NCBI RefSeq assembly: GCF_003336245.1
Contig: NZ_QPHM01000001.1
Location: 1,798,001 to 1,862,000, forward strand
DNA from: Haloplanus salinus
GTDB taxonomy: Archaea; Halobacteriota; Halobacteria; Halobacteriales; Haloferacaceae
DNA: 64,000 bases
Reading direction: 5' to 3'
A program made the translations under genes and the position numbers. Positions within the stretch are counted from its first letter, which is position 1, and every line of letters begins with the position of its first letter. Under the pieces are notes generated by a model that had not been told where the DNA came from, ran no database searches, and saw nothing but the letters and a program-made list of their open reading frames with translations. Positions 24,187 through 27,762 of the stretch are shown here, in pieces.

Positions 24187-24202
24187 TCCGTGACCGATGC
24201 AA

Positions 24203-24209
24203 TCTTATA
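24203..24209 (+). promoter_or_regulatory. Probable TATA box of the leader-ACT-hom operon
   Basis: TCTTATACC at 24203-24211 is a good archaeal TATA match and sits about 25 bases before the ATG at 24232. The transcript would therefore begin at, or within a few bases of, the leader ORF, the leaderless arrangement common in haloarchaea. Confidence 0.6.
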
Positions 24210-24231
24210 CCCAACCGGCACAGTGTGTATC

Positions 24232-24351
24232 ATGCCCAGCGGCATGACTACCGGCAGTCGACGTGTCGGCACGGAGCTACCCCGCGGCCCCTCCCCGTCG
24301 CCGATTACAATTATTACGTCGGCGGGTCGTGCCGCGGGGGTGACGGCCTGA
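24232..24351 (+). CDS. Putative Ile/Thr-rich leader peptide
   Basis: A 39-codon frame (second Met at codon 5) ends with TGA directly before the ATG of the ACT-domain gene. Codons 25-29 are ATT ACA ATT ATT ACG (Ile-Thr-Ile-Ile-Thr). ATT and ACA are rare in this GC-rich genome, where ATC and ACG/ACC dominate. The promoter places the start codon at or near the transcript 5' end. The next genes encode an ACT sensor domain protein and homoserine dehydrogenase, which commits carbon to threonine and isoleucine. Known parallel: the bacterial thr operon leader peptide uses Thr/Ile codons for attenuation. No homologue search was possible. Confidence 0.55.
   Translation: MPSGMTTGSRRVGTELPRGPSPSPITIITSAGRAAGVTA
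24279..24341 (+). promoter_or_regulatory. Attenuator-like RNA fold over the leader peptide
   Basis: ACCCCGCGGC at 24279-24288 pairs with GCCGCGGGGGT at 24331-24341 (one bulged G). The loop holds the Ile/Thr codons. The 3' arm covers GGGGGTGA (24336-24343), a near-perfect Shine-Dalgarno sequence for the ATG at 24352. A competing small hairpin, CGGC 24320-24323 with GCCG 24331-24334, would exclude the long stem. Base pairing is seen directly; the regulatory role is inferred. Confidence 0.5.
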
Positions 24352-24948
24352 ATGAGCGACGAGGCCGTTTCCACCCCCGACGCCGACGCCGACGCCGACA
24401 CGGACGTGACCGATCCCGAAACCGACGGCGGCGAGCGTCCACAGACGCACACGATCCGGCTGGAACTCGTCGACAAGCCGGGCGAACTACTGTCTGCGCT
24501 TCGCCCCATCGCAGAGAACGGCGGCAACCTGCTCTCGATCTTCCACGAACGCGGCAACCTCACCCCGCGGGGGCACATCCCCGTCGAGGTGGACGTGGAG
24601 TGTCCACCGGACCGCTTCGAGACGATCGTCCAAGCGCTCCGCGACGAGGGTGTCAACGTCATTCAGGCGGGCGCGGAGCGTTACGGGGAGGAGTTGACCC
24701 TCCTGCTCGTCGGTGACATCGTCGACACCGACCTCTCCGATACGCTGCGACGGATCGAATCGAGCACGGACGCCACGCTCGCCGACCTGTCGCTCTCGGC
24801 GCCCGACGGCCGTGGGAGCGCGTCGAGCGCGCGCCTCCGCCTCGCGACCCGGACCGGCCGGACGGACCAGGTGTTCGACCACGTGCGGGCGATCGCGGAC
24901 GAGAAGGAACTGAACGTGATCGAGCCACTCGTGGAGGTGGCGGAATGA
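24352..24948 (+). CDS. ACT domain-containing amino-acid-binding protein
   Basis: 198 aa. After an acidic tail of about 28 residues, an ACT domain starts at THTIRLELVDKPGELLSALRPI and runs to about residue 105; a second, weaker ACT-like half follows. ACT domains bind amino acids and regulate metabolic enzymes. The gene overlaps the homoserine dehydrogenase start by 4 bases (ATGA), so the two proteins are probably made together, with this one as a separate allosteric subunit. Bacterial homoserine dehydrogenases often carry a fused ACT domain; here it is split off upstream. Confidence 0.88.
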   Translation: MSDEAVSTPDADADADTDVTDPETDGGERPQTHTIRLELVDKPGELLSALRPIAENGGNLLSIFHERGNLTPRGHIPVEVDVECPPDRFETIVQALRDEGVNVIQAGAERYGEELTLLLVGDIVDTDLSDTLRRIESSTDATLADLSLSAPDGRGSASSARLRLATRTGRTDQVFDHVRAIADEKELNVIEPLVEVAE

Positions 24949-25898
24949 GTCTCCGTCTCGCGGTCGTCGGCGTCGGCGCCGTCGGTCGGTCGGTCGTCGA
25001 ACTCGCGCCGGACTACGGTCACGTCGTGACCGCCGTCGCGGACTCGCGGTCGTCGGCCGTCGACCCGGACGGCATCGATGCGGACGCGACCTTCGAGCGC
25101 AAGGAGCGCGAGGGCGTCGTGGGGTCTGGCGACCCGGCGGACGCGCTCGCCGCCGAGTACGACGTTCTCGTCGAGGCGACACCGACGACGCTCGGCGACG
25201 CCGAACCCGGGTTTTCACACGTTCGCGCGGCCCTAGAGCGCGACCGGCACGTCGTGCTGGCGAACAAGGGACCGGTGGCGGAACGGTACGCCGACCTCCG
25301 CGCGCTCGAAGCCGAGAGCGACGGGACGGTGCAGTTCGAGGCCGCCGTCGGCGGCGCGATCCCCATCCTCTCGACCATCGCCGACTTCGGGCCGAACCAG
25401 ATCACTGCGGCCCGGGGTGTACTCAACGGGACCGCGAACTTCATCCTCTCGCGGATGGCCGCGGAGGGGCTGGGGTACGAACACGTCCTCGCGGAGGCAC
25501 AGGATCTCGGCGTCGCCGAGGCCGATCCCGCCTTCGACGTGGACGGGACGGACGCGGCGCTGAAGTTCGTCATCCTCGCGAACGTGTTGAGCGACGGCGC
25601 GGCCGTGTACTCCCTCGACGACGCCGAGGTGGAGGGCATCCGCTCCATTCCGGCGAGCGCCCTCGACTTGGCAGCGGAGGACGGCCGGACGGTCCGGCTG
25701 ATCGGCGAGGCGACGGCCGACGGCGTGCGCGTCGGCCCGCGACTCGTCCCCCAGCACGACGCGCTGACGGTGACGGGCACGCGTAACATCGTCCAGTTCG
25801 AGACGGTTCACGCGGGACAGCTCCACCTGAGCGGTCGCGGTGCCGGCGGCCCGGAGACGGCGACGGCGATTCTCTCCGACGTGAGCCGACTGGAGTGA
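24945..25898 (+). CDS. hom: Homoserine dehydrogenase
   Basis: 317 aa, short form without its own ACT domain. It reduces aspartate semialdehyde to homoserine, the branch to threonine, isoleucine and methionine. The N-terminal Rossmann motif is VVGVGAVGRSV. Signature blocks are LANKGPVA near residue 105, FEAAVGGAIPILSTI near 127, and GVLNGTANFILSRM near 158, with DVDGTDAALK further on. It is coupled to the ACT gene and, by inference, to the leader peptide upstream. Confidence 0.93.
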   Translation: MSLRLAVVGVGAVGRSVVELAPDYGHVVTAVADSRSSAVDPDGIDADATFERKEREGVVGSGDPADALAAEYDVLVEATPTTLGDAEPGFSHVRAALERDRHVVLANKGPVAERYADLRALEAESDGTVQFEAAVGGAIPILSTIADFGPNQITAARGVLNGTANFILSRMAAEGLGYEHVLAEAQDLGVAEADPAFDVDGTDAALKFVILANVLSDGAAVYSLDDAEVEGIRSIPASALDLAAEDGRTVRLIGEATADGVRVGPRLVPQHDALTVTGTRNIVQFETVHAGQLHLSGRGAGGPETATAILSDVSRLE

Positions 25899-27690: not shown

Positions 27691-27762
27691 GGGCTCGTAG
27701 ATCAGTGGCAGATCGCTTCCTTCGCAAGGAAGAGGCCCCGGGTTCAAATCCCGGCGAGTCCA
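27691..27762 (+). tRNA. tRNA-Ala (CGC)
   Basis: Complete cloverleaf of 72 bases. The acceptor GGGCTCG pairs with CGAGTCC, including the G3-U70 wobble that marks alanine tRNAs, and the discriminator is A73. The anticodon loop TTCGCAA gives CGC. T-loop GTTCAAATC. No CCA is encoded and there is no intron. Copies of its 3' end recur downstream. Confidence 0.95.

Follow-up and report, generated by a model that had tools for sequence, protein, structure and literature searches.

A probably leaderless leader frame with threonine and isoleucine codons upstream of the ACT and homoserine dehydrogenase genes of haloarchaea: a candidate for amino-acid sensing

Known leader systems and the locus in Haloplanus

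The leader of the bacterial thr operon (thrL) is a short open reading frame (ORF) with clustered Thr and Ile codons, located before the genes of the homoserine/threonine branch. In translational attenuators of the ermC type, the leader ORF lies directly 5' of the gene. In Haloferax, a Shine-Dalgarno (SD) sequence does not support de novo initiation (PMC3986360, PMC6728339). The ACT-domain protein gene and the homoserine dehydrogenase gene (ACT/hom) of Haloferax volcanii, by its description one of the coupled pairs tested, are strictly coupled by termination-reinitiation, and a premature upstream stop was shown to abolish translation of the downstream gene of this pair (PMC6728339). Coupling requires spacings of -4, -1 or -8 or very short spacings (PMC10666635). 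A list of upstream ORFs (uORFs) in H. volcanii comprises 5'-UTRs of 150–250 nt with ORFs of 15–31 aa (PMC4983044, Table 2). In the open-access literature searched, we found no description of the leader upstream of ACT-hom and none of leader-peptide control of archaeal amino-acid genes.

The window, i.e. the whole stretch of DNA analysed, comprises 64,000 nt of the Haloplanus salinus genome. It contains an ACT-domain protein gene at 24352–24948 (+ strand; 198 aa; Pfam ACT match with an E value of 5e-6, slightly below the curated cut-off) and a homoserine dehydrogenase gene (hom) at 24945–25898 (+), which had NCBIfam and Pfam homoserine dehydrogenase matches. The two genes overlap by ATGA (hom start at 24945, ACT end at 24948). 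With the ACT protein as query, the ACT gene was found in 148 of 148 family genomes and in 145 of 145 class genomes, and hom was located downstream of it in all 154 loci checked. A second ACT homologue was present in several genomes (e.g. G079:C1:1247788-1248315 and G068:C11:517132-517641).

A preceding sequence-only reading had placed a TATA-like block, an ATG at 24232, a 39-codon frame ending right at the ACT start and an SD upstream of the ACT gene. All four are in place, with the TATA block corrected from 24203–24209 to TTATA at 24205–24209 (+), which begins 27 nt 5' of the leader ATG. The leader uORF (MPSGMTTGSRRVGTELPRGPSPSPITIITSAGRAAGVTA; 39 codons plus TGA) spans 24232–24351 (+), and its stop TGA (24349–24351) abuts the ACT ATG at 24352. 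The SD-like sequence GGGGGTGA (24336–24343, +) lies inside the leader frame, 5' of the stop/start junction. The position of the TATA box predicts a transcription start at the leader ATG or a few nucleotides away from it.

The gene order between 20729 and 27630 was EF-2-like GTPase, HATPase-domain sensor kinase, leader-ACT-hom, EF-1A-like GTPase and a small ribosomal-protein-like gene, with the amino-acid operon surrounded by translation genes; the family search in this region covered the kinase, ACT and hom. A tRNA-Ala (CGC) lies at 27691–27762, and minus-strand ORFs reading MDSPGFEPG adjoin or overlap this region.

The haloarchaeal leader is like thrL and related attenuators in combining a Thr/Ile-codon ORF with RNA structure around the stall codons. 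Unlike thrL, it has no intrinsic terminator (no T run between 24232 and 24351 exceeds two) and no conserved antiterminator/terminator pair, and its start is probably leaderless, with an overlapping stop/start as the likely coupling to the gene. With ermC-type attenuators it shares a leader ORF adjoining the gene and the proposal that the fold of the RNA depends on where the ribosome stands. Unlike these, SD sequestration in the unstalled fold is seen in Haloplanus and is not conserved in the family, and Haloferax does not start translation de novo from an SD (PMC3986360). The ATGA/GTGA overlap and the SD are also found in the coupled pairs of H. volcanii (PMC6728339, PMC10666635); unlike there, a short leader peptide takes the upstream place here, and its rare Thr/Ile codons are positioned. 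The uORFs of PMC4983044 are alike as short ORFs upstream of haloarchaeal genes. The ACT leader, which has 34–35 codons in Haloferax relatives and is Arg-rich, is absent from Table 2 of that study.

Conservation of the leader frame and its Thr/Ile codons

DNA upstream of ACT was taken from 234 loci. Once identical sequences had been merged and five doubtful cases dropped, the set comprised 95 distinct leaders, from most Haloferacaceae genera and several genomes of Halobacteriaceae (family names were assigned from named matches). In all 95, an ATG leader frame of 34–65 codons occupied the equivalent position upstream of ACT-homoserine dehydrogenase, a presence that is partly circular, as leaders were selected for a TATA box followed by an ATG frame that stops close to the ACT start. 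The expectation that related genomes carry a short ORF with Thr/Ile codons here was borne out, and leaders of the same type occurred in all Haloferax genomes examined. One phase, which was not forced by the selection, was common to 72 of the 95 leaders despite their different lengths. The stop/start junction was ATGA/GTGA in 71 of 95 leaders and TGAATG/TAGATG in 18; the leader stop thus keeps its relation to the ACT start while the leader length varies. The distance from TATA box to ATG was 26–32 nt, with a mode of 30 nt (73 of 95 leaders), and the leader transcript is therefore probably leaderless.

Within Haloplanus, pN/pS was 0.59 in the leader frame compared to 1.27 and 1.17 in the other frames. 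The nucleotide divergence within this genus was 0.068 in the leader and 0.687 further upstream, the latter value being ungapped and hence inflated. A chance ORF was ruled out by the single phase over 34–65 codons, the TATA spacing and the codon placement (see below). Comparison gives good support both to translation of the leader and to the identity of its codons.

The leader peptides are Arg-rich, with few acidic residues. Such a composition is unusual among haloarchaeal soluble proteins and favours a role in regulation over one as a protein. The leaders do not resemble arrest peptides (TnaC, SecM, fungal AAP), as their C-terminal parts vary in sequence and length. Their N-terminal conservation falls in stem arms.

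The Thr/Ile cluster of the window leader, ATT ACA ATT ATT ACG, occupies codons 25–29 (24304–24318, +). Its codons had been called rare. In 41 window coding sequences, this is correct for ACA, with a share of 2.3% among Thr codons, and for ATT, with 9.5% among Ile codons, and incorrect for ACG, which at 55% is the commonest Thr codon. The expectation for a run of five Thr/Ile codons in a leader of this length was 4e-4, and 16,540 window residues contained no such run. Across the leaders, Thr made up 15% of the residues. ACA accounted for 172 of 588 leader Thr codons (29%) compared to 26 of 1126 (2.3%) in the 41 window genes. It was essentially confined to codons 23–28, with 60% at codon 24, and was absent at codons 6–22. 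A/T-rich codons at positions 22–29 encoded Thr or Ile in 80% of cases; the share was 28% in the rest of the leaders and 19% in genes. A cluster at positions 22–29, with two or more Thr/Ile codons among three, was present in 39 of 48 non-redundant leaders (<80% identity), with 14.5 expected and a maximum of 25 in 1000 draws.

Thr and Ile interchange at the cluster (PTT, STT, PITII, PTII, PII). The leader had been read as an Ile/Thr leader; Thr is the conserved signal, and Ile merely replaces it in some lineages. Some leaders have few Thr codons (parts of the Halobellus group; L151, L157 and L158). The 53-codon leader upstream of ACT in Halospeciosus flavus (L236) has many alternating Thr codons (STPTCTRTRTRTPT) and is far richer in Thr than the others. 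The Thr codons at positions 5 and 13, usually ACG, sit in stem arms, and pairing is the better explanation for them. A demand for unpaired A/T-rich RNA alone is insufficient to account for the cluster, because its codons are restricted to Thr and Ile. The leader has the sequence features of an amino-acid leader peptide in the wide sense: a conserved short ORF, enriched in codons for the end product, before a biosynthetic gene.

A search at the thrC/ilvA-type, aspartate-kinase-type and leuA-type genes of three genomes yielded no leader with clustered cognate codons. A conserved ORF of 25–26 residues (MSEHTPTDEDRVSRREAAGCEILRVN / MSEDTTPTEDRVSRRETAGCEIRRF; L300, L301) precedes an HMGL-like (leuA-type) gene in two genera and is not rich in one amino acid. 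A search of the own genome for the promoter-plus-leader pattern gave no match elsewhere, which says little, as the pattern is not an exact fit to the genome's own leader.

RNA helices around the codon cluster

Individual folds suggested two nested helices. In the outer one, arm A (codons 3–8) pairs with arm D just past the ACA codons; in the inner one, arm B (about codons 10–15) pairs with arm C (about codons 17–22). In the window leader, arm A (GCGGCAUGAC) lies at 24239–24248 (+) and forms 10 bp, including one G.U, with arm D (GUCGUGCCGC) at 24326–24335 (+), which in Haloplanus is directly 5' of the SD. The hairpin is formed by arm B (GUCGGC ACGGAG; 24265–24276, +) and arm C (24291–24305, +), and is weak in Haloplanus and strong in the family. 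Arm C reaches as far as the opening codon of the Thr/Ile cluster in the window leader, and in the family it ends at the first Thr codon. The cluster is placed directly 3' of the conserved hairpin.

Helix energies were compared with dinucleotide shuffles, which preserve dinucleotides and not codons, in 44 leaders of <80% identity. The Stouffer z of the B:C hairpin was -9.6, with a value of about 0 for the window leader (L001) alone. For the A:D duplex, with D at 6–30 nt after ACA, it was -7.6 (control: -1.5), a somewhat favoured value, as the limit for D was chosen after a wider test had given -3.2. The alternative pairings B:D and A:C were rejected as a switch, being weak (-2.1 and +2.9). The fold of the window leader alone was unexceptional (z -0.96); the structural evidence is at the level of the family.

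RNAalifold gave no consensus over all genera. In its place, the analysis relied on the comparison of energies with shuffles and on a structure set by hand. In a 20-sequence alignment, this structure paired 77% of cells compared to 32–45% when it was slid. Covarying stem bases, an earlier suggested check, were found to a modest degree only: six of sixteen pairs had double changes, slightly above the shuffle control. A covariance model of this alignment had matches in 74 of 242 class genomes, with a single match in each. The matches inspected sit immediately upstream of ACT, and all were confined to the two families except for a few weak ones (E value of 2e-4 or worse). Rfam covariance models gave no relevant match up to E = 1, and hence no T-box or other known RNA family. 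Taken together, conservation of the A:D and B:C helices is supported by comparison.

Ribosome entry, proposed sensing and alternatives

The spacings between leader and ACT are those required for coupling (PMC10666635). With a stop/start overlap or short spacing, and an upstream ORF that carries an SD at its end, leader and ACT have the geometry of a termination-reinitiation pair. We infer that the two are coupled. The Haloferax SD results and these spacings make it most likely that ribosomes reach ACT-hom by way of the leaderless start of the leader. Other haloarchaeal families have ATG uORFs of 9–18 codons with a leaderless-like placement and a stop/start overlap with ACT (L048-L116, L193-L242), among them MTTCGRPRHGGDGDG in Natrialbaceae, with an overlap of 8 nt, and MSRDTQEVSGR or MSGTTSQEVSGR in Haloarcula. 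Leaderless entry and coupling may thus be old, with the Thr/Ile element added in two families. Several of the short uORFs have Thr-Thr near the start (MTTCGRP..., MSGTTSQEVSGR).

With moderate confidence, we propose that the leaderless leader peptide senses Thr (Ile in some lineages) and sets the number of ribosomes reaching ACT-hom. That rare Thr/Ile codons keep a fixed position between two conserved helices speaks for sensing of the Thr (and Ile) supply, which we infer here. Transcription would begin at the leader ATG, and a ribosome would initiate without a 5'-UTR. It would melt the A:D / B:C fold and decode the rare ACA/ATT cluster at codons 23–28, where low Thr-tRNA (or Ile-tRNA) would slow it. 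The ribosome position would then decide whether the local fold re-forms. At the stop, the ribosome would reinitiate at the overlapping ACT start, helped by the SD, and again at hom.

On physiological grounds, starvation probably raises rather than lowers ACT-hom expression. Under strict leader-to-ACT coupling alone, a stalled ribosome would lower it, opposite to the favoured direction. Most likely, in our view, slow decoding would instead part C from D and leave the 5'-terminal start (arm A) open, so that expression would go up on starvation, as it does under bacterial thr attenuation. If the fold acts on the 5'-terminal start in this way, ACT-hom should increase on starvation, a prediction that simple simulation neither supports nor excludes; simulated stalling gave no family-wide opening of the 5' end. 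Our tentative and somewhat doubtful suggestion for the regulated site is the leaderless 5'-terminal start itself: slowed ribosomes would free arm A next to the 5' AUG and permit further initiation, and the effect would be passed to ACT and hom by successive termination-reinitiation.

The leader could also be a constitutive entry site, with a leaderless start and coupling, whose Thr/Ile codons and hairpins sense nothing. The 9–18-codon uORFs of the other families, which share the overlap and often lack clustered Thr, agree with this. However, it leaves the identity and position of the rare Thr/Ile codons unexplained, as well as the conserved helices, and we consider it unlikely.

Quite unlikely, in our view, is a structured RNA read by a ligand or protein, e.g. 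with the ACT protein binding the A:D/B:C helices and the ACA junction and repressing its own operon, while the frame serves ribosome entry only. The nested helices with their unpaired ACA junction are conserved, the leader divergence within Haloplanus is very low (see above), and the downstream gene encodes an amino-acid-binding domain. Nevertheless, the A/T-rich codons of the junction are those for Thr and Ile and not just any A/T-rich codons, and the RNA has no Rfam relative.

The sequence-only reading had proposed a translational attenuator with a stem over the SD, in which ribosome stalling on Ile/Thr codons opens or closes access to ACT. In the version considered here, starvation opens the SD: the stem is broken by a stalled ribosome, and ACT is then started by a new one. 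The SD-covering stem exists, with 9 bp between 24280–24288 (+) and 24331–24339 (+), and competes with A:D. It is confined to Haloplanus and its nearest relative. The competing hairpin that was claimed at 24320–24334 is present with 4 bp only. In the window leader (L001), a simulated stall opened the SD from 0.01 to 0.52 unpaired, and leaders of a few other genera (L016, L021, L224) behaved alike. The other genera that were folded also had a recognisable SD of this type. In the family, as judged over 59 non-redundant leaders, the SD was more accessible than in shuffles (0.38 vs 0.29 unpaired), its opening by a simulated stall at the Thr codons was no greater than in shuffles, and D was far from the SD in long leaders. 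With SD sequestration unconserved, no stall gain beyond shuffles and an SD that has no role in de novo initiation in Haloferax (PMC3986360, PMC6728339), exposure of the SD by ribosome stalling fails as a general mechanism for ACT, and the attenuator is very unlikely.

In the preferred reading, in which the leader peptide senses Thr, the leader resembles the bacterial leader peptides that respond to a lack of amino acids and looks like their counterpart in archaea. It can be tested in Haloferax volcanii, where reporters, reinitiation assays and ribosome profiling are established. If the reading is true, archaea sense amino acids via the translation of a leader, and do so on mRNAs that probably have no 5'-UTR. 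The enzyme genes would be reached only by reinitiation, and hence the route of the signal would differ from that of bacterial attenuators.
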